Assembly: GCA_030841085.1 (NCBI GenBank)
Contig: JAVEDP010000036.1
Span: 62,001 to 126,000 of the forward strand
Origin: Pyrinomonadaceae bacterium
GTDB lineage: Bacteria; Acidobacteriota; Blastocatellia; Pyrinomonadales; Pyrinomonadaceae
Reading direction: 5' to 3'
DNA: 64,000 nt
A program made the position numbers and the translations under genes. The notes beneath the pieces were generated by a model. The model was not told where the DNA came from, ran no database searches, and worked only from the letters and a program-made list of their open reading frames with translations. Position 1 is the first letter of the stretch. Each line of letters starts with the position of its first letter. This document shows, piece by piece, positions 1-60,066 of the stretch.

Positions 1-1200
1 CGAGCGGCCCGGCCACGCGGCGAAAAAGATTTGCAGTGGCTCGTCCGCCAGTTTGATTTGCTAAATAGAACTGAGAAAGAGAAAGCGGAACTTTACGATT
101 CGCAGCAACTCTACGTGCGTTGGCAGCCGGCGTATAGTGCGACGCGGACCGGCATGCGCCTTCCTGCGCGCAAAGTTTTCTTTCATCGCGAGCCCTTACT
201 GCGCCGCAAAGATGTATCGCTGCGCGCTGAACTCGAGAAACAGTCGCCACCGTTGCAACTGCTGTCGCCGAAGCAGGGCGAAGCGATTCTGGACATGGCG
301 CGCGAAGCTTCAACGACGCGCTATCGCGAGCTCTATGGATTTACGCACGGCGATGCCAGGAGAGTTTTTAAGACAAACATCGGCCGCGGCGTAGATATTT
401 TTGTGACCGGCTTGCCCGCCGAGTGGCGTCTGCCTTTGCGCGCTTATCACGCGGCCCTGATTTTTAAGAATGGGGTGCCGGTTGGATATTTCGAGGGGCT
501 TTCGCTTTTTGAACGAATGGAAAGCGGCTTCAATCTTTACTACCAATTTCGCGACGGCGAAACGGCCTGGCTTTACGCGCGTCTGCTGAACATCTTTCGG
601 CATCTGCTGGGCGTGACTGCTTTTTCTCTCGATCCCTACCAGATCGGTCACGAAAACGAAGAAGGCATCGAATCGGGGGCGTTCTGGTTTTATCGCAAGC
701 TTGGTTTCCGTCCGACAGGACCCGACATCCGAAAACTCGTTGTGCGGGAAGAAGAAAAACTCGCCAGGCGATCCGCGTATCGAACGTCCGCGGCAACACT
801 GCGCAAGCTCGCCGCAGGCCCAATGATTTTCGAATTGGACCAAGAGCAAAGTGGTGATTGGGATCGGTTCCAGGTTCGCAATGTTGGTTTTGCGGCGCAA
901 CGACAAATGGCAGTTACGTTCAAAGGGGAGGCAGAAAGAATGCGCGATATTTCGGTCAGATCCCTGGCGGACGCCTTAGAGATTCGCACCAGGAGTTGGC
1001 GAGAGACAGAACTAACGGCGCTGCGCGATTTCGCTGTGCTCTCGACTGTGATTCGCGATCTTGGTAGATGGACCAGGGGAGAGAAACAGCAGCTTGTACA
1101 AATCATTCAGGCGAAGGCCGGCCGCGACGAAGCAAAATATCTAAAGCTAATGCAGAAGCATGAGCGGCTGCGAAAAGAAATCATTCGACTGGGATCTTGA
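1..1200 (+). CDS. GNAT-like hypothetical protein, 5' end cut by window
   Basis: The reading frame is open from the first base, so the true start lies upstream; 399 residues are visible. A TTG at 31 and later codons are possible internal starts, but nothing supports them. The middle part (about residues 110-240) resembles an N-acetyltransferase fold: a strand ending in a VGYFEG-like turn, then a late motif GAFWFYRKLGFRPTG, typical of the C-terminal half of GNAT domains. The C-terminal 150 residues are charged and helical with no recognised domain. The acyl acceptor cannot be told. The gene is followed at once by a palindromic repeat. Assignment to GNAT is by motif only. Confidence 0.6.
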   Translation, partial: RAARPRGEKDLQWLVRQFDLLNRTEKEKAELYDSQQLYVRWQPAYSATRTGMRLPARKVFFHREPLLRRKDVSLRAELEKQSPPLQLLSPKQGEAILDMAREASTTRYRELYGFTHGDARRVFKTNIGRGVDIFVTGLPAEWRLPLRAYHAALIFKNGVPVGYFEGLSLFERMESGFNLYYQFRDGETAWLYARLLNIFRHLLGVTAFSLDPYQIGHENEEGIESGAFWFYRKLGFRPTGPDIRKLVVREEEKLARRSAYRTSAATLRKLAAGPMIFELDQEQSGDWDRFQVRNVGFAAQRQMAVTFKGEAERMRDISVRSLADALEIRTRSWRETELTALRDFAVLSTVIRDLGRWTRGEKQQLVQIIQAKAGRDEAKYLKLMQKHERLRKEIIRLGS

Positions 1201-12189: not shown

Positions 12190-12484
12190 AGCCTGCGGAG
12201 CAGGTAATAGCGTAAAGCCTGGGGTGAAGCGCAGCGGAACCCCAGGTTGGTAGCCAAAGATGACGCCAGCCCGCGGAGCGGGCGACAGGCTTTGTCGCGA
12301 TGAGTCTGTCGCCCGCTCCGCGGGCTTTGCTATTTTCAATTCACGGTTCCTGGGGTTACGCTTCGCTCCACCCCAGGCTTTATGCTCTCGCCCGCTCCGC
12401 GGGCTTTGCTATTTTCAATTCGTGGTTCCTGGGGTTACGCTTCGCTCCACCCCAGGCTTTATGCTCTCGCCCGCTCCGCGGGCT
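12190..12484. repeat. 79-base tandem repeat with an inverted counterpart
   Basis: Two full 79-base units, 12309-12387 and 12388-12466, differ at about two positions, and a partial third runs 12467-12484. Each unit has a GCCCGCTCCGCGGGC palindrome and CTGGGGTTACGCTTCGCTCC. The segment 12190-12292 carries the same words in the opposite orientation. It fills the 375-base gap between two plus-strand genes. Confidence 0.9.
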
Positions 12485-18853: not shown

Positions 18854-18976
18854 GGGCAAAGCGCAAAGCGCAAAGAGCAAAGAGCGAAGAGCAAAGGGCG
18901 AAGGCGAAGGGCGAAGAGCAAAGCGCAAAGAGCAAAGGCCGAAGCGTGAGGAGCGAAGAGCGGAAAGCGAAGTCTG
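18854..18976. repeat. Purine-rich low-complexity repeat (AAAGCGC/GAGCAAAG words)
   Basis: Over 120 bases the plus strand is a run of short, irregular 6-9 base units such as GCAAAGC, GCGAAGA and GCAAAGG, with almost no T. A short complement (GGCCCTTTGCTCTTGGCCC) follows at about 18980. No gene is seen. It separates the doxX-like and thioredoxin genes. Confidence 0.85.
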
Positions 18977-49492: not shown

Positions 49493-52400
49493 CTAAATAC
49501 GGCCCGTCGCCCATTTGATGGCCGCATCAAATAACACGCCGCCGTTTGTTGTGAAGCCTGTAGCTGTCGTGTCGAACATGAACAGTCCCACACGCCTGGC
49601 TGGCGCAGTCAAACCTGGCATCACGGCTCCTGTAGCATAGCCGAAGATCACGGTTTTGGTCGCATCGCTAGCTGCTGTTGCGACCGCAGCCGCATTGGCA
49701 TTGGGCTTTCCCCAGCCGAAAGTTCCGGAGGTGGTAACAACTGAAACAGTCCCTGACAACCCGGCGGCCATCGGATGCGCAGCATTCAGTATCTTAACCT
49801 GTGTCTGTTTTGTAAGCGTGCCGAAGTCTTTATTCGTGCTGCCGGTCATTCCCATATTCGTAAAGAGCCCAGACTCCCAGGTAACAACGGGTACGTTGAC
49901 GGCGCGAAACTTTGTGCCCACCGACGCTGGCGTCACCGTTGAAGAAATTACTACCACTGCTTTGCCGGTGGCATCAGCGGTAGTAACGCTGGTTCCATCT
50001 TTGACCGTCACGACGTAATTCAAGGCTTCCAACCTGGCTTTGATGGCGGCGTCGCTGGTATTTAATGTTGTAGAACCCGCAACTAACAGCGCCGGTGAAG
50101 TAACTTTTATCGTCACTCCAGCCGTTTGCATTGTTCCGCCGCTATTGTCGGTAGCCAGGGCTGTGACTGTGTAATTGCCAATCGGTACGTTGCTCCAGGT
50201 GAAGCTGTATTGATTCGTACCTGCCAATGTGCCCAATCCCACGAATGCTCCGTTTGCAAAGTATTCCACTTTAGCAATGGTGCCATCGGAGTCAGATGCG
50301 TTAGCCGTCAAAGTCACGCTAGCCGGCGTGTTGTAATTGCTTCCATTTGTTGGGCTGGTCAAAGTCACCGAAGGCGGTGAGGTTACGGTTAGGTTCATCG
50401 GGAGCGATGTTGTCGTGGCTCCGTAGTTATCCGTGGCTACCGCTGTGAGTACATAGTTTCCTGATGCCACATTCGCCCACTGCGCGCTGTATTGGTAGGC
50501 ACCGGTAGCCGAGCCGCGAATCAATTGGGTTCCATTAATATAAAAGTCTACTTCATTAATATACCCATCGCGGTCACTGGCATTCGCGAAGAGAGTTACG
50601 GGATTAGATACGACAGTCGGGGTCGTAAGAAACACGCCAGGCGGATCGTTAACGGTGATAGTCACCGTTGGGGAAGTGGTCGTCACCCCTGAATTATCAG
50701 TAGCAACTGCGATCAAGGCATAACGTCCCGCGGGTGGATCATTCCAGTTCATGCTGTATTGGTCGACCCCTGATACGGCTCCCGTTCCGATCAGGGCCCC
50801 ATTGGCGTAGAAATCCGTTTTGATAATGGTGCCTCCATTTTCACTGGCGTTGGCAATGATGGGGATATTAGCCGGCTTCTTGAAGGGCGCTCGAAAATCG
50901 AGGTTGGTGATACTGACCAACGCCGAACCATTTACGACGATGCTAATCGGCGAAGAGCTGGTCTTCTTATCCATATTGTCGGTGGCCACGGCAACCAGTG
51001 AATGCTGCCCGAATGGAACATTGTTCCAGCTAAAACTAAACAAGTTGGCTCCCGATACGGTGCCCGTACCAAGTAACGTTCCAGCGTCATAGAACTCAAC
51101 CTTACTGATGGCCCCGCCACCATCACTGGCGTTCGCTGTAACGGAAATGTTCGCTGGCCCCACAAAGAGTGAGCCAATTGTTGGATTCGTAATACTGACA
51201 ACCGGCGCGATGTTTCCGTCAGAGCTAATAGTTGTATTCTCAGTTACCGAGTTATTGCTTGAAATAGGATCGGGCTGCTTTGCCCTCACCAGTGCGGTGT
51301 CGGTAATCGTCTGTGGTCCTGACGAGGTGCGTAGCGTTATCTCTGCCGGTTTAACAATAAGAGTGACGGTAGCAGTCGCATTCAAAAGAAGCGAATTGAG
51401 TTTACAAGCTACGTTCCCTTCGCTGTGGTTACAAGTTCCTTGCGTGCTCGCCGCTGAAACAAAGTCAACATCAGGGGACAGACCGTCAATCAAAACAATT
51501 TCGCTCGCGGCTTGCGGCCCCTTATTAGTTACCTTGATCGTATATGTCAGATTGTTGCCGACCACAATTGGATCTGAAGAATCGGTTACAGTGACCGCCA
51601 AGTCAGCCGTGGCCGTGCTCGGAGGCTGAGGCTGCGCGGTCGCTATTACGAAACCACCGAGAGTATTGCTTCTGGAGTAGATTTTCCGCGAAGCAAAATC
51701 CGAGACTGGCGTGTCAGGTGAAAGAATTGTTCGATCTACCCAAATACTCCTGGCCGGATCACCTACATCCTTCTCCGCATGAAGCACGCGTAAAGTATTA
51801 AAGATAGTTTGATCGTTGACCGACGACACATCGAAGGTGACGGTATGAGGCCCAGACACCAAGGCACTCGTTTCGACATCGTAAGAAGCGTTATTGTAGG
51901 TAGCATACCCGATTGGGAGTGGGCTTACCGTGGTCGGATCAAGATCAGTGAAGGTCGTTGGTCCATCCTGATAGCGTTCGGGAAAATGGATTGAAATGGG
52001 TTCATTCTGTCCAGCCGTTGCCACCGAGAACGCCTGGCTATCTTTGACTAAAGACTCTGGACGGCCAGTAAGTGGGCTTGAAGTATTTCTCGTTATCGTC
52101 GCATCTAAATCTGCCTCCGAAGGATTAAAGAATTCAGGGTGAATAAAGAAAGTGTCTTCCGATTGGTGACCGGTAGCTGAATACCACAGAACCACATCAT
52201 CCGGTGCTGTGTAGTCATAACTTTGTTCGCGCAGATCGAAGCCTGTGGTTGGATGACGGATCGGCTCCTGATTGGAGAGGGTCGAATAATCAGTCGGATC
52301 CTCCTCCCCGGCGTGATTCCTCACAATGGCGAAGTCCAGATCTTGATTCGAGCCCACAGGTATATAAACTTGGAAATTGTTGTAGCGTTGGGCGTCGGTA

Positions 52401-53762
52401 AGGGTACTAGCGCCCCAGCGCCAATGCATATGCAGGCACTCCGGACAGCCCGCAAATGCAAGACGGCTCAGGTCGAGAGGCTCATCGACCACACCTTGAT
52501 ACGTCTGGTGAAGATTGTCCCAGGTGCCGGTGTTTTTGCCGTCTTTAATCACTCGCGCTTTATGCTCGGTGAACAGCGGGTTTTGCTTGTCCTTAAATAA
52601 TAAACCCCCGGTCGAAAGACAGTTGATAAGCCCATCGCAGTCTCTAAACAGACCAACCGTGTCCTTAGCGTACCCTTTGACTGGAGATCTATTGCGCTGA
52701 GGGATGTTAATACTGGTTAGAGTTTCGCCTCCCGAGCCAACGAATTTGTAGCTAACGAGCGCTCTATAATTCGAACAGACCAACTCGCCGCTGGGCTCGC
52801 AGGGAAGCACACCCTCTCTGTAGAACTCGTAGCGCTGAGTTATGTGCAGGCAGCTTTGTGAGGTTGCCGGAATGCGATCTACGATGTAGGTGGCCTCAAC
52901 CACCAACTTATCTCCATCGGCATAAGTGTTGTAGTTAACGATTCGGCTTCGCATTGATGGCGGATCACCAGAGGGTGACAACTGCCCGCGACCCAAGGAA
53001 AAAGCGCTGGTTTGAAGCGTGTAGTAAGGAACGCTGATTTTTTCAGTCATGTATCGCTCGCCCAGCTTGATGTTCGTCACCACCAAGCCGTCGTTGTCGG
53101 TAACGTCGGTTTGCATCGACCAATTCTTGACCGGCGCTGGCCAATTGCTTGCGAGAGGTTGCGAAGCCGGCTTGGAAATCGCACTTGCTGAACACGATTC
53201 GCACGCCCATGGTTCTAAGCGAAAGCTCACTCCAGTGAATGCCATATACCAACTGCCGTCTGCGTTGAAATCATTATTTGTAAGGGTGATGTCGGTTATG
53301 CCATAGCTCACAAAATCGAAACCCGACCGGGTATTATTTGTTACTGTTACAGACTCGCCTTTATTATTTGTGGCCGTGAAGCCGGTCCCCAACACGCCGA
53401 CGCTTACAGTTCTAACTGGTTTAGACAAGTGAATCTTCAAAACTGGTGAAAAGTTTTGTGAGGAACAATTGGGGGATCCCTGGGTTGTGTAGCCACCGTC
53501 AAGATTCCCGATCCAATATCCACCGCTCAAGGTTACTAATACATTTAGTTCCGGGAACCCAGGCACATACGCGGCGATATCTCCAACTGAATCTCTAGGA
53601 GCCAAACCGCATGAAAAACTATAGGCGACAGGTTCATCAGACCAGAACGCACTGTTATTAAGATTGCAGTCATGGACCTGGGCATATATTAGCGGCTCGA
53701 CCATGCAAATGATGGCCACGGCAATCGCAATACACTTAAGTTTTGAGAGGTAAGTTTGACAT
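49493..53762 (-). CDS. Giant secreted Ig-domain protein with frameshifted start
   Basis: About 1,420 residues. The best start is ATG 53762, six bases after GGAGG, but that frame stops after eight codons. Skipping one base of the AAAA run at 53744-53741 joins it to the long frame and yields a good signal peptide (CIAIAVAIICMVEPLIYAQ). After a unique N-terminal region (about 30-800) come a DUF11 domain (PADLAVTVTDSSD-like start, VTNKGPQAASEIVLIDGLS), four bacterial Ig-like domains (each with ANASD..G.I..V.F and YAATD-type closing), and a C-terminal amidotransferase-like segment (VLLVAGSTT..., GFTTNGGVLFDAAIKW). Without the shift, the reading frame has no normal start. Likely a cell-surface protein; expression is in doubt until the frameshift is checked. 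Confidence 0.75.
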
Positions 53763-53852
53763 TTGACGCCTCCGGATGGGGATATCTGGAAATGAGGAAA
53801 ATGATCTTTAGCAACGCCAGGAAGGTATAGTGGTTTCTCTAGTCTATATTCA

Positions 53853-54038
53853 TTACGCCGGCGCTGGCTGTGAATCCGACACCAAGCCAACCACCATCGC
53901 CGGGCCCTTCCAGTCTTCTTTTTCGGCCAGCATGAAGCCGGTTGAAGCACTCGAGAGATTGCCGTAAGTTTTCAAAACGTCGTACCGAACCCTGGACTTT
54001 GTTGGAATCAGTTTCCAGGTGGGAGGTGTGAATACGCT
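53853..54038 (-). other. Orphan reading frame, possible gene remnant
   Basis: A 61-codon frame without a usual start runs from a TAG at 54041-54039 to a TAA at 53853. The translation looks like real protein (RYDVLKTYGNLSSASTGFML, EKEDWKGPAMVVGLVSDSQP) and ends QPAPA. It lies in the gap between the protease and the Ig-domain gene. It may be the end of a broken gene, or a short unrecognised one. Another frame is open across the region but looks less protein-like. Confidence 0.35.
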
Positions 54039-54070: not shown

Positions 54071-56308
54071 TTAATCGCTGAGCATGATGCCATCGCTCAA
54101 CATGATGCCGTCGCTGAGCATAATGCCGTCGCTGAGCATGATGCCGTCGCTCAACATGATGCCATCGCTAAGCATGATGCCGTCGCTGAGCATGATGCCG
54201 TCGCTGAGCATGATGCCGTCGCTCAGCATGATTCCGTCGCTGAGCATGATGCCGTCGCTCAGCATGATTCCGTCGCTCAACATGATGCCGTCGCTCAACA
54301 TGATGCCATCTTTGTAGAGATGACCATCGCTAAGCATGATGCCGTCGCTAAGCATAATGCCATCGCTAAGCATGATGCCGTCGCTAAGCATGATGCCATC
54401 GCTGAGCATGATGCCGTCGCTCAACATGATGCCGTCGCTGAGCATGATGCCATCGCTAAGCATAATGCCGTCGCTGAGCATGATGCCGTCGCTCAACATG
54501 ATGCCATCGCTTAGGACTGCGCGGCCGCCGTGCATTACCGAATCGCCAACCAGCACGCCGTCACTAAGCATGATGCCATCGCTCAACATGATGCCGTCGC
54601 TGAGCATGATGCCATCGCTCAACATAATGCCGTCGCCCAGGATGACGCCGTCGCTGAGCATGATGCCGTCGCTAAGCATGATGCCGTCGCTAAGCATGAT
54701 GCCGTCGGTCAGCACCGGCTGGTTCTTGAAGAAAACGCCGTCGGCATAGATAACGCGGCTGCTTAACTTCACGTTTTCGCCGCCGATGTTCATCGCTCCA
54801 AAAGACTTCAGCGTGTTATTGGCGCGCAGGATGTTGCTGCCGGCAACCAGGTGGTCCGCGTTGGGAACAACTGCGCGGGCGAAGTTAACTGCGGCGCCGG
54901 CGTTTACCAGTCCTGCGCCTTGAGAAAACAAAGACTGCGCCTTGCTGCCGGAGTTCGGTAACGCCTGCGCAGTCTTTACGAGGATCGCCTTAACCAGCGA
55001 CGGGGTGAGAGATTTATTGGCATCTAGCATCAGCGCCACAGTGCCGGCGATGACGGGGGCCGAAAAAGACGTTCCGGAATAATTGAAGTAAACACTGCGT
55101 GCGGCAGTCGAAGAAACCGGCTGCACTATTCTCGCTGGATATTCGTTGGCCAACGTCGTGTTCACTTCCTGCGACATGGCGGCAACGATGCGGCGTCCGG
55201 GGGCAACGATGTCGGGCTTGACGAGATGATCAAAGCGGGTCGGCCCTTTGGACGAGAACGAAGCAATCGTGTCGTCCGAACGACGCACTGTCTCGTGACT
55301 GTCAGTGGCTCCAACGGTAATGACGTACGGGCTGTTGCCGGGGCTGCCGACCGTGCCATAGGCCATCTGGTAAATCGCCGAGCCGTCAGCGTTGTAGCCG
55401 GTGATAACGTCTGTGCGGCCGAGGTTGCCCGAGCTGCAAACAACTACGATGCCGGACCGGACTGCTACTTCAACTGCTTTGCAAAGAGGATCAGTGTGAA
55501 AGGATTCGCGCACCGGCATGCTCAAGCTCAGGTTCGCAACGCGGATGTTATAGCGCGCGCGGTTTTGAATCATCCAGTTGATTGCCGCAAGAACATTGCT
55601 CGTGCGACCAACGCCGTTCTCATCGAGAACGCGAACATCAATCAGGTTAGCGCCGGAAGCAACACCGGCGTAGTTTGCTGCATAACCGCCGGAGGTTGCG
55701 CCACTCCCTGCTGCTACGCCGGCTACGCCGGTTCCGTGGCCATCAGCATCGCCGCTGCGTTTGCTGCCGCTAAAGTCGACGGACGCGATGACGCGAGACT
55801 TATTATTCGTTACGAAGTCAGGATGATTTGCGCTGATGCCGCTGTCCAGAATCGCGATTCCTACGCCTTTACCGTTGACGCCCGACGCGCCTGGCTGTTC
55901 CGACTGCACTTGCGTGACGCCCGTCGTATCGTTAGTCAAATTCATTTGCGCTTTCACTGGTCGGTCAGGAGCGACATAGAGAACGTCGGTGCGAGCGGCA
56001 AGACCTGCAACCTCGTTCAGGGGAACGTCGGCAACGATGGTGTTCAGCGCATCGTAACTTGCGCGCTTGCTGCCATGTGCACGAGTTAACGCGCTGTCAT
56101 GATTCGCGTTCGGTGCGCCTTTAGTTTGAATTAGCACGCGAACAGTCGCCGTCGAGCCGTTGGTTTTTGAGAATTCCGGGGCAGCCTTCTTTTCGACGTG
56201 TCGCTGTTGATTGCCATTGCGGGGGGCCGCAGACACGGACATCGCCGGGGCGAGAGTTACTGCCACCAGGCTGATAAGGCTGAGATAAGCTGAGGTTTTG
56301 CGCAACAT
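54071..56308 (-). CDS. S8 (subtilisin-like) protease with hexapeptide repeat tail
   Basis: The 745-residue protein has a signal peptide (LISLVAVTLAPAMSVSAA), an I9-like propeptide (about 50-115) and an S8 catalytic domain. The triad is Asp155 (AILDSGIS), His191 (DGHGTGVAG) and Ser414 (YSGTSFSAP), all present, with Asn-containing CSSGNLG for the oxyanion site. From about 535 to the end lie 35 hexapeptides: 30 are exactly DGIMLS and five are variants (DGVILG, DGVLVG, DSVMHG, GRAVLS, DGHLYK). ATG 56308, after AAGGAA, is preferred over a TTG 18 bases upstream. Probably a secreted protease with a beta-solenoid or adhesive tail; the fold is inferred. Confidence 0.93.
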   Translation of the reverse strand: MLRKTSAYLSLISLVAVTLAPAMSVSAAPRNGNQQRHVEKKAAPEFSKTNGSTATVRVLIQTKGAPNANHDSALTRAHGSKRASYDALNTIVADVPLNEVAGLAARTDVLYVAPDRPVKAQMNLTNDTTGVTQVQSEQPGASGVNGKGVGIAILDSGISANHPDFVTNNKSRVIASVDFSGSKRSGDADGHGTGVAGVAAGSGATSGGYAANYAGVASGANLIDVRVLDENGVGRTSNVLAAINWMIQNRARYNIRVANLSLSMPVRESFHTDPLCKAVEVAVRSGIVVVCSSGNLGRTDVITGYNADGSAIYQMAYGTVGSPGNSPYVITVGATDSHETVRRSDDTIASFSSKGPTRFDHLVKPDIVAPGRRIVAAMSQEVNTTLANEYPARIVQPVSSTAARSVYFNYSGTSFSAPVIAGTVALMLDANKSLTPSLVKAILVKTAQALPNSGSKAQSLFSQGAGLVNAGAAVNFARAVVPNADHLVAGSNILRANNTLKSFGAMNIGGENVKLSSRVIYADGVFFKNQPVLTDGIMLSDGIMLSDGIMLSDGVILGDGIMLSDGIMLSDGIMLSDGIMLSDGVLVGDSVMHGGRAVLSDGIMLSDGIMLSDGIMLSDGIMLSDGIMLSDGIMLSDGIMLSDGIMLSDGIMLSDGIMLSDGHLYKDGIMLSDGIMLSDGIMLSDGIMLSDGIMLSDGIMLSDGIMLSDGIMLSDGIMLSDGIMLSDGIMLSDGIMLSDGIMLSD
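54074..54703 (-). repeat. 18-base tandem repeat encoding DGIMLS
   Basis: About 35 in-frame 18-base units encode the protease tail. Units differ mainly at third positions (GAC/GAT, ATC/ATT, CTC/CTT/TTA-type Leu codons), which points to selection for the peptide. Two interruptions lie near 54309-54324 and 54500-54560. Confidence 0.95.
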
Positions 56309-56979
56309 TTTAGTAGTTCCTTTCAAGTGGTTCGTCCTGCCAAGTGGCTTTCTCTATTTCAACAGTTGTGCCACTTCCTGGAATTACTTTTTAGGGCTTC
56401 CAAGTTGAAGAATAATTAGACTTAAGGGCGATGTAAGGTAGTCGCCTAGATTCGCGGCCAAGAGCTCAAAATTTGGATACGCGGTATCCAAGAAGCTGTC
56501 TCAATCACGGCTGGCGCAAGGAAAGTCTCAGAAACTCTAAGCTTTTCGCAGATTTGTGGGTGGGGCAAGAAGGTTGGAACTAGTTGGCAACGAAATATAC
56601 AGTGGCTACTGAGTATCCACTAATTTTTGGGCCATCACTTTTGGCGCTTTGGAAGGGATTCTCTGACATGTTCCGAGGAGACCGGCGTAGGGGTGGTTGG
56701 CCGTTAAGGTGTCATTCTCAGAAAAACTAACGGCGCAGTGCCGGAGGGGATCACCCCACAGCATTACGCCGTCGTTTTTAACTCGATGTCTCACGTCGGT
56801 ACCAACGCGCAACAGTCGAGTCTATGGAACACATTGTTAAGGACGAAAATATTTACGTCAATCGCGCGCCAGAAAATAAAACAAGAATTGTTTTTTGCGG
56901 AGCGTTCGTGCCGGCTCTCATCGGCACATATGCAAGGCCGCGGCATTCGACAATCGCGAGGGGTGAAGGAGGAAAGTTT
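56309..56979. other. Spacer without recognised genes
   Basis: The 670-base gap between two minus-strand genes has only short overlapping frames that lack protein-like composition. Near 56877-56898, AAAACAAGAATTGTTTTTT is a weak A/T hairpin that could end transcription of the activator gene. The protease promoter should be in the left part; no clear boxes were found. Confidence 0.5.
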
Positions 56980-59900
56980 TTAGGCGCTGGCGCTGAGTTG
57001 ATAGCGCTCAAGTTTGAGGTAGAGGCCGCGACGGGTCAGGCCGAGTTCACGAGCTGCGCGCGAGATGTTGCCGCCGTGCTTCCGCAAGGCGTCGGAAATC
57101 ATGCGACGCTCCACTTCCTCGAGGGCATCCGCAAGCGTCAAGCTTTGCGAGGAAGCGCCGCTCATCGAGCTCAGCGAAGAAACGGAAGCGCTCGGTGTGG
57201 TTGGCGAAGAAGTGCGTTTCAGTTCGGGAGAAAGTTGATCGGGTGTGATTATTGCCGAGTCTTCCGCGCGGGCCACAACGCGTTGCACTTCGTTACAAAG
57301 TTGGCGCACATTTCCCGGCCAATCGCTGACCATGAGCAGGTCCACGGCCTGTGGCGTCATTTGAATGTTGTTGCGGCCAAATCTTGCCGAGTAGTGATTG
57401 ATGTAGTAATTGACGATGGTGGGAATCTCCGAACGTCGTTCACGCAGCGGAGGCACGCGCAACCTGATCACATTAAGGCGGTAATAGAGGTCTTCGCGAA
57501 ATCTCCCCTGTGCGACCATCTCCTCGAGATCGGTGTTGGTCGCGGCGATGATGCGAACGTCCACTTTGATTGGACGCTGTTCGCCCAGCGGTTGAATCTC
57601 GCCCTCCTGCAAGAAACGCAGCAGTTTGGGTTGAACGTCGAGCGGCAGATCGCCAATCTCATCGAGAAAAAGCGTGCCGCCTCCGGCCGTGCGAATGACG
57701 CCGGCAGAATCCGTGACCGCGCCGGTGAACGCGCCGCGCCGGTATCCAAAAAGGTAACCTTCCGAAAGTTCTTTGGGCACCGCGGTGCAGTTGAACGGGA
57801 CGAAGACTTTGGTGCGGCGCGACGAAAGCGCATGGATTGCGCGCGCGACCAACTCTTTGCCGGTGCCTGATTCTCCGGTTACCAAGACGGTCACATCAGA
57901 CGATCGGATCTTGTGAACTTCCTCAACCAGCTTGGTCATTGCCGGACTTGAATGAATGAAACCGGGCATCAAACTGGCTCCCGTCAGTTCTGCGGGCTGC
58001 TGTACGCGCGAGCCTTTTTGCGAACCGCTGCGCAGGGCACAAACATCCATGCCCAGTTCGGCAACGCGCATCAAGGGATCGAGGGAAAGGCCGCCGGGGA
58101 GTTTTGCACGACTGCGTGGCGAAAGATAAAGCGTGGCCGGTTGTGCATGCGAAGGACGAAGCTGCAACAGCACCGCGTCATTTTTTTTTGCAAAAGCCGC
58201 TTGCGATTCCTCGTCTGTGTTCTGGTCCATCTGACTCGCAAGCGTTGCACTTTCGGCCGGCGTGCAACCCTGGGCAATGACCACCCGTCGTTCGTTATGG
58301 TCGCCGGGTTCTGTAATCAGGACGCACTTGGCACTGGTTTCCTGGCGCATAATCGCCGCCAACTCGCGCAGTAGAAGTTCGCGGGACGTGACTGCCTCAG
58401 CAAGGCGCAGGGTGAGCAGTTGCGTCAACGCCGACTGCTCGTCGTTTCTTTCCGGAGTACTGCGGTCCAGGTTTGCAAGTGCGGCTTCCGCGCGCGCCTG
58501 ATCCAGCTTTGCTCCCAGTTCACGAAAAGCGTTGACTGCGCGGGATAGATGTTCAATCGCGCGACTAGGCTGGCTTACCGCGTAGGCGCGGCCCAATTCG
58601 CTGTGGGCGCGCGCCGCGCGATAGCGATCTCCCAGCATGTCAAAGATGGAAACGCTGCTGCCGAAGTGTTGGGCCGCTGAAGAAAAATCCGCTTTCATCA
58701 TTGCCAGCATGCCGGACAACCGCTGAGCTTCCCCGGCAAATCCCATGTCGGTTGCGGACTCGCTCGTTTCTTCATCCAGCTTGGCGAGTTCTTGTGCACA
58801 CTTTTCCGATTCGCCATTCCGAAGATGCGCCTCCGCGAGTATCAAACGCGAATCTGCAGCGGCCTGTCGATCGCCGATTGCCTCGGCCATGGCCAACGCT
58901 TCCTCGGCTTTTGCGAGCGCCTTCGCGTGATTTTCCATGGCGAGGTAGCACCGGGCCAGGGTCCTAAACGCTTGGCACGCGTACCACTTATTTCCATACT
59001 CAGTCGCCAGCGCGACAGCACGCTGCAAGTAATCCTTGGCGTCGTCCAGTTCGCCGCGCAGCATCAGCAATTCGCCGAGCGAGTCCAAAATCATCGGTAC
59101 CTTTTCGGCACATTCATCGGCTTCGGTTGCCAACTCGAGCGCGCGTTGCAGCGCCTCCTGGGCCTTCGCCCACTGCCCAATCAGAATGAGGTTGATACCG
59201 AGATTGTTATAACCGTCGGCGGCAGTGGCTTTGTGGTCCGTGCGTTCGTAATAAGCGATGCCCTTTTCGAGATAGCGAATTCCTTCCTGCGGCCGTTTCA
59301 GGAACCAGCAAACCCCAGCCATGTTCGAGTAGATTCGGCCGAGGGTATAACTTGCCGGATGATCGCCGACGAGCTTCAGTGCCTGCTGCAAATTCTCGAG
59401 CGCAGTTTCGTAATCGCCTTCCTGAACCTGGGCCAGCGAAATGCCGAAATACGCTTCGGCCAGGCCGCGCCATTCGCCTGACTGCCGGAAATGCTCCAGC
59501 GCCCGTTGCGCATAATCAAGCGCGATGGGGTATTCACTTATGCTTCGGTAGACTCGCGCGAGCGCCGAGTAAATGGGACCAACATTCTGTTCCGGAGTGC
59601 TTTCAAACTCGCGCAGCGATCCCTTGAGGATTGAGATCGCTTTCGGATGATCGCCGTTGTAGTTGTACGAAAGACCAATCTGTACCTTAAGCGACTGCAC
59701 GGCCAGTTGATCGAGTTTCTCTCTGGACTCCGGCGATTCGTACATCGCGACTGCTGCTAACGAGTCGCGATACTGTCCCTGCATTTCCAGCGCGGTCGAT
59801 AAGGCGCAGCGTGCCAGGGCAAGGACCGAAGGACTGTTGCGAGCGGCGGTGATAAGGGAAGCGAGACGTGTTTTTGCTTCAGCGGACAAACCCTGATCCA

Positions 59901-60066
59901 GCAAGGATCGAATCTGGTCCAACTCTTCAAGCAGGTTTTGGCTTGGGGCTTGGGATGAACGGGAACTTAAACGCACCCGGGCGTCGGCGAGATCGACCAC
60001 ACCTTTTCCGCTTGAGGATTGTTTTGGCGCCGAACCCCCGGTTCCGGTGCCTGCTTTTTTGGCCAT
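56980..60066 (-). CDS. TPR-GAF-like sigma-54-type transcriptional activator
   Basis: The 1028-residue regulator has a low-complexity start, TPR repeats from about 45 to 470 (for example SVLALARCALSTALEMQGQY, AEAYFGISLAQVQEGDYETA), a GAF-like region of about 500-640, and an AAA+ domain from about 710. Walker A is GESGTGKE, the sigma-54 contact loop is GAFTGA, and Walker B is GTLFLDEIGDL. The Fis-type HTH at the end reads GGNISRAARELGLTRRGLYL. It would activate RpoN-dependent promoters by ATP hydrolysis; TPR and GAF regions are probable sensory inputs. It lacks a receiver domain, so phosphorylation control is not expected. Targets are unknown. Confidence 0.93.
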   Translation of the reverse strand: MAKKAGTGTGGSAPKQSSSGKGVVDLADARVRLSSRSSQAPSQNLLEELDQIRSLLDQGLSAEAKTRLASLITAARNSPSVLALARCALSTALEMQGQYRDSLAAVAMYESPESREKLDQLAVQSLKVQIGLSYNYNGDHPKAISILKGSLREFESTPEQNVGPIYSALARVYRSISEYPIALDYAQRALEHFRQSGEWRGLAEAYFGISLAQVQEGDYETALENLQQALKLVGDHPASYTLGRIYSNMAGVCWFLKRPQEGIRYLEKGIAYYERTDHKATAADGYNNLGINLILIGQWAKAQEALQRALELATEADECAEKVPMILDSLGELLMLRGELDDAKDYLQRAVALATEYGNKWYACQAFRTLARCYLAMENHAKALAKAEEALAMAEAIGDRQAAADSRLILAEAHLRNGESEKCAQELAKLDEETSESATDMGFAGEAQRLSGMLAMMKADFSSAAQHFGSSVSIFDMLGDRYRAARAHSELGRAYAVSQPSRAIEHLSRAVNAFRELGAKLDQARAEAALANLDRSTPERNDEQSALTQLLTLRLAEAVTSRELLLRELAAIMRQETSAKCVLITEPGDHNERRVVIAQGCTPAESATLASQMDQNTDEESQAAFAKKNDAVLLQLRPSHAQPATLYLSPRSRAKLPGGLSLDPLMRVAELGMDVCALRSGSQKGSRVQQPAELTGASLMPGFIHSSPAMTKLVEEVHKIRSSDVTVLVTGESGTGKELVARAIHALSSRRTKVFVPFNCTAVPKELSEGYLFGYRRGAFTGAVTDSAGVIRTAGGGTLFLDEIGDLPLDVQPKLLRFLQEGEIQPLGEQRPIKVDVRIIAATNTDLEEMVAQGRFREDLYYRLNVIRLRVPPLRERRSEIPTIVNYYINHYSARFGRNNIQMTPQAVDLLMVSDWPGNVRQLCNEVQRVVARAEDSAIITPDQLSPELKRTSSPTTPSASVSSLSSMSGASSQSLTLADALEEVERRMISDALRKHGGNISRAARELGLTRRGLYLKLERYQLSASA

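Follow-up and report, generated by a model that had tools for sequence, protein, structure and literature searches.

The window, a 64,000-nt stretch of a Pyrinomonadaceae draft genome, encodes on its reverse strand a subtilisin-like protease that ends in a long array of six-residue repeats (Table 1). The mechanical open reading frame (54071-56326, reverse strand) opens at a TTG codon at 56326 and spans 751 residues, but translation more likely begins at the ATG at 56308, which is preceded by an AAGGA Shine-Dalgarno sequence. In the resulting numbering, D155, H191, N295 and S414 sit in intact catalytic motifs, and the Asp-His-Ser triad (D155, H191 and S414) together with the PF00082 match places the protein in peptidase family S8, bearing out the preliminary description of it as subtilisin-like. 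It shares the S8 core with subtilisins of known structure, the closest by sequence being 3afg, but differs from them by its hexad-array tail, which is acidic (net charge -33, against +10 for the body of the protein). The protein, which has a signal-peptide-like N-terminus, is best explained as an exported subtilisin-like protease, an enzyme of digestive type. Hexapeptide repeats are nowhere mentioned in a 2008 survey of the domains joined to prokaryotic subtilisins (PMC2605481).

Table 1. Features of the tailed protease locus, in window coordinates
Feature	Position	Strand	Basis or remark
Downstream neighbour gene	49493-53950	-	1485 aa; Big_7 and DUF11 domains
Tailed S8 protease coding sequence	54071-56308	-	745 aa from ATG
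Array: 35 hexads (30 DGIMLS) and terminal Asp	54074-54706	-	Translation; Tandem Repeats Finder
Landmark 2: DGHLYK	54311-54328	-	Identical in the sister species and L166
Landmark 1: DGVLVG-DSVMHG-GRAVLS	54509-54562	-	Same unit position in the sister species; diverged form in L166
Linker, protease to array	54707-54910	-	Alignment: kept in closest relatives
Peptidase_S8 catalytic domain	54911-55873	-	PF00082, E = 9.4e-50
Signal-peptide-like N-terminus, MLRKTSAYLSLISLVAVTLAPAMSVSA	56228-56308	-	Judged by eye, not by a predictor
Candidate sigma-54 promoter, TGGCACAACTGTTGAA	56358-56373	-	65 nt before ATG; TGGCACAAGGGTTGAA in the sister species
Upstream neighbour gene: TPR, sigma-54 activator (AAA+) and Fis-type HTH	56980-60066	-	Pfam

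The hexad array and its predicted fold

The tail consists of 35 in-register hexads that start at residue 541 (TTG numbering) and are followed by an aspartate and the stop codon, the unit count being that of a draft assembly. Translation confirmed exactly the preliminary count of 35 hexapeptides, 30 of them DGIMLS, and the coordinates first given (54074-54703) were right to within three bases; the five remaining units are DGVILG, DGVLVG, DSVMHG, GRAVLS and DGHLYK. Tandem Repeats Finder delimits the array as 54075-54707, with a period of 18 and 35.2 copies, and reports other tandem DNA repeats in the window, of 79 bp at 12309-12484 and of ~55/7 bp at 18854-18958. There are 12 distinct 18-nt spellings among the 30 DGIMLS units, in which methionine is always ATG, serine always AGC or AGT, and glycine almost always GGC.

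In a sequence comparison with the PDB, the window tail matched maltose O-acetyltransferase, LpxD, LpxA, DapD, gamma carbonic anhydrase and eIF2B epsilon, and all its matches were left-handed beta-helix proteins, with the exception of RNA polymerase beta. The tail of a congener retrieved the same folds, with E-values down to 1.6e-9, and passes the cut-off of the Hexapep profile PF00132 (27 bits), for which the relatives L148, with its DGVLIG tail, L146 and L115 score 54.7, 36.4 and 30.7 bits; this profile was matched at E <= 0.01 by 21 of 33 tails. The window's own tail falls below every Pfam cut-off, with PF00132 unreported and LbH_EIF2B at 39.7 bits against a cut-off of 54. Across all tails, 36% of units fit the strict pattern [LIV]-[GAED]-x2-[STAV]-x, and 87% a loosened version. 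Judged by sequence, the tails are hexapeptide repeats of the left-handed beta-helix type, and the DGIMLS version is a diverged form of that repeat. They share with the Hexapep proteins (PF00132; LpxA, LpxD and maltose O-acetyltransferase) a six-residue period, a D-G/N turn and, loosely, a [LIV]-[G/S] strand pattern, with several relatives passing the cut-off. Unlike those proteins, the tails are not transferases but are fused to an exported protease, and they have near-identical units, a hydrophobic residue at position 4, and a hexad private to each protein; the triangular 18-residue coil is only putative in the tails.

AlphaFold2 modelled the window tail (pLDDT 61, pTM 0.33) and the L093 tail (pLDDT 53) with low confidence. 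Because of this, and because the weak models gave no Foldseek match at E <= 0.001 and no VIA-align match with Z >= 8, we claim no fold from structure; the low-scoring matches were a mixture of pentapeptide-repeat, right-handed and left-handed helices. The preliminary suggestion that the tail is compatible with a beta-solenoid stands in so far as hexapeptide and left-handed beta-helix profiles resemble it, but gained no confirmation from structure prediction. The tail is likely to be a beta-solenoid, the cross-section of which we leave unspecified. Some features would suit another kind of solenoid in the same role, such as a two-sided 12-residue coil or an amyloid-like stack. Firstly, hexad autocorrelation detected no period of three hexads (18 residues), as a triangular helix would give, and was slightly raised at a lag of two (12 residues). 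Secondly, interruptions mostly substitute one unit, with 135 of the 280 spacings other than six being 12 residues. Thirdly, the three consecutive hydrophobics of each hexad would place hydrophobic residues on both faces of a strand. Fourthly, the top VIA-align rows were pentapeptide-repeat helices. However, the sequence profiles indicate left-handed helices only, and the quality of the structure model is too low for it to count either way; we consider this alternative unlikely.

The preliminary description had also suggested calcium binding, and a tail so acidic and rich in D-G might be read as a calcium-binding, RTX-like beta-roll for type I secretion. Yet nothing indicates RTX repeats: the period is six rather than nine, the Pfam scan found no hemolysin-type repeat profile, and the protein has a signal-peptide-like N-terminus, making this reading very improbable. 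The protein also lacks the marks of a type V autotransporter, with no barrel profile found by Pfam and nothing C-terminal to the window array.

Distribution of the tailed proteases

The source genome (4.69 Mb in 43 contigs) encodes twelve S8 domains, four of which carry hexad tails: that of the window gene, C3 (DGIMLS x 8), C43 (DGVIIT/DGVIIS) and C30 (DGVLLS). Searching the genome for DGIMLS outside the window, as the preliminary description had proposed, hence yielded a second array, in the C3 paralogue; the search also retrieved the organism's LpxD. A match at C12 (L013) is a short frame. When counted with a profile of the linker and tail, the S8 and hexapeptide-tail family is present in 106 of 119 Pyrinomonadaceae genomes, representing 27 of 29 genera. 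It is also found in one further family of the class, the other genomes of the class that were listed being without it, while a search at the level of the order added no carriers, as the order comprises Pyrinomonadaceae alone. When 85,000 named genomes were scanned for the pattern, the matches listed were almost all from Acidobacteriota; those from elsewhere (L081, L128, L133 and L153) look like chance frames, three of them having been scanned against Pfam without a match. A uniform tail was initially thought unusual for an S8 enzyme, but is instead typical of this protease family, and the preliminary reading, which stood to fall if relatives did not conserve the tail, does not do so on that count, because the tail is very strongly conserved among them. 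No description of the family was found in the literature searched, which covered subtilases of Acidobacteria, hexapeptide tails, the peptide and the evolution of repeats. Its parts, an S8 domain and hexapeptide-type repeats, are ordinary, and their combination is widespread, yet apparently undescribed.

These relatives also make it hardly credible that the tail is functionless low-complexity sequence or an assembly artefact. Such a reading could appeal to the draft state of the genome, from which the unit number of this tandem repeat was taken, but is opposed by the conservation of the tail across genera, the purifying selection acting on it, and the retention of its landmarks across species.

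The family varies in its architecture. Most relatives (for example, L009, L048 and L105) have a conserved GD-x-[TSP]-x-x-M ending after the array, which may be a cap. The window protein lacks this ending, as do its close kin, and all of them terminate in the repeat. Two to three tailed proteases, with different private hexads, lie side by side at L109:2432-6602, L091, L182 and L190. Two to four hexad words per array occur in the window protein's relatives L118, L166 and L196, the last of which has EGIAFG and DGILMA, and IMLA and VVLG alternate in the array of Pyrinomonas methylaliphatogenes. In L145 (MAG45, JAIVJI010000103.1), the protease domain itself contains three hexads of the kind that make up the protein's tail, GIILT-DGILFG-DGILLG (917-970, forward strand; residues ~197-215). 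They lie in the loop ahead of the catalytic His motif, which gives the impression that units were copied into it.

Private hexads, codon divergence and unit turnover

Each protein tends to repeat a hexad of its own. The probability that two units share the same four-residue core is 0.574 within a protein and 0.036 between proteins (137 tailed proteins, ignoring kinship), and agreement persists between blocks of one protein that have conserved non-repeat stretches between them (0.557 against 0.032). Even isolated single units carry the hexad of the main array 60% of the time, compared with 5% under a permutation of modes that ignores phylogeny. At least 53 changes of the modal hexad are needed on a quick S8-domain tree, and therefore the hexad switches often. 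That each protein has its own private hexad suggests that proper stacking depends on units matching one another.

The obvious alternative is that uniformity is a mere by-product of frequent 18-nt duplication or gene conversion, with no selection for matching. Codon identity was compared with independent draws from each gene's own codon usage, the arrays being phylogenetically related and their kinship ignored: of 97 arrays with at least six units, 63 were indistinguishable from random, 32 were higher and two lower, with L166 having codons more diverse than its own usage predicts. Hence the uniformity of those 63 arrays is not accounted for by recent copying of DNA, although the mean identity over arrays (0.495, against 0.417 expected) is somewhat above expectation, such that some gene conversion is likely. 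The window array is itself one of the higher set, as is its orthologue in the sister species: its codon identity of 0.67, against 0.40 expected, means variation is well below random, and part of its uniformity reflects recent unit duplication. DNA copying contributes to the uniformity of this array. The same alternative is favoured by the six units of L109 that are identical in DNA, by the tail-type hexads within the L145 protease domain, and by the difference in unit number between sister species. As the preliminary description anticipated, this number varies, with 35 units in the window and 27 in the sister-species orthologue (93% amino acid identity outside the tail); the differences all fall inside DGIMLS runs, and the landmarks are fixed.

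Other observations do not fit duplication alone. Firstly, TCN and AGY serine codons are mixed in 21 of the 47 serine-bearing arrays, and in C30-type arrays, where both boxes occur together, the serine codon at a given position is mostly the same in different species. Secondly, the C30 orthologues in G000, G004 and G008 differ by serine or alanine in seven of nine units, with G008 carrying the alanine, while the odd interleaved units stay in place. Thirdly, the private hexad is kept in isolated units beyond conserved non-repeat segments. We therefore regard duplication without matching selection as improbable. The preliminary claim that selection acts on the peptide while third codon positions vary holds in the ungapped tail block shared with the sister species, where pS is 0.31 and pN 0.02 (0.39 and 0.03 in the body), but third positions vary less than it implied, given the codon identity of 0.67. 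Purifying selection holds the tail peptide. In our reading, units are occasionally duplicated, after which selection holds the peptide while codons drift. Since different proteins hold different sequences, we infer that this selection must be defined relative to the rest of the array. The most far-reaching version of this idea is that the tails evolve in concert at the level of the protein without DNA homogenisation, with hexads selected to match the others of their own protein, so that the whole array, isolated units included, shifts its hexad while codons evolve independently; this we advance only tentatively, as a possibility somewhat short of even.

A close analogy is polyubiquitin, where purifying selection likewise keeps the repeated peptide identical although its synonymous codons have diverged. 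The tails share the uniform peptide and the diverged codons under such selection, but whereas the ubiquitin sequence is fixed across species, the tail hexad varies from protein to protein.

Sigma-54-type sites and the proposed role of the tail

The candidate promoter of the window gene reads TGGCAC-N5-TTGAA, with a -12 element of TTGAA in place of TTGC (GC to GA). Of 106 tailed-protease genes, 54% have a site resembling TGGCAC-N5-TTGCW, called at nine or more of 11 positions, within 200 nt of the start; the corresponding figures are 2% for the antisense strand, 4% for shuffled sequence and 8% upstream of other ORFs. The median distance from the beginning of the -24 element to the start codon is 86 nt. 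The genome encodes rpoN, and sigma-54 probably drives expression of the tailed proteases. The adjacent activator gene may possibly control the window protease; tblastn found this adjacency kept in G004 (96%) and L196 (63%), and did not find the activator at the L118 or L166 loci. A -24/-12 site also precedes exported PEP-CTERM proteins, at a mean of 71 nt from motif end to start codon (PMC1569441). The tailed proteases resemble them in often having such a site at a similar distance, but belong to another protein family in which no PEP-CTERM anchor was seen.

On balance, we lean modestly towards an exported S8 protease with a left-handed-beta-helix-like solenoid tail for anchoring or oligomerisation, in which selection would favour units that match those next to them. 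The tail would be a beta-solenoid built of hexapeptide repeats, with the left-handed beta-helix as its nearest counterpart, in which the D-G pair of each hexad would form a turn, and the three hydrophobics and the serine or glycine a short strand. It would thereby present a stiff acidic rod with hydrophobic stripes, which, to judge from the domain architecture, may tether or oligomerise the protease at the cell surface or on an insoluble substrate, leaving the catalytic domain free. If hexads stack only on their own kind, selection would keep each array self-consistent rather than preserving one fixed sequence. Gain or loss of units would now and then alter the length of the array and re-homogenise its DNA, after which codons would drift apart while the peptide is held. 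Sigma-54 would drive expression, at the window locus possibly through the neighbouring activator.

This mode of repeat evolution is unusual and deserves a proper test. More than 100 natural, near-perfect hexad arrays, with different private sequences on one scaffold, are now available for examining whether identical neighbours are a requirement of beta-solenoids, and by what means repeat proteins remain uniform. They indicate a large, apparently undescribed, sigma-54-linked family of extracellular proteases in soil Acidobacteria.
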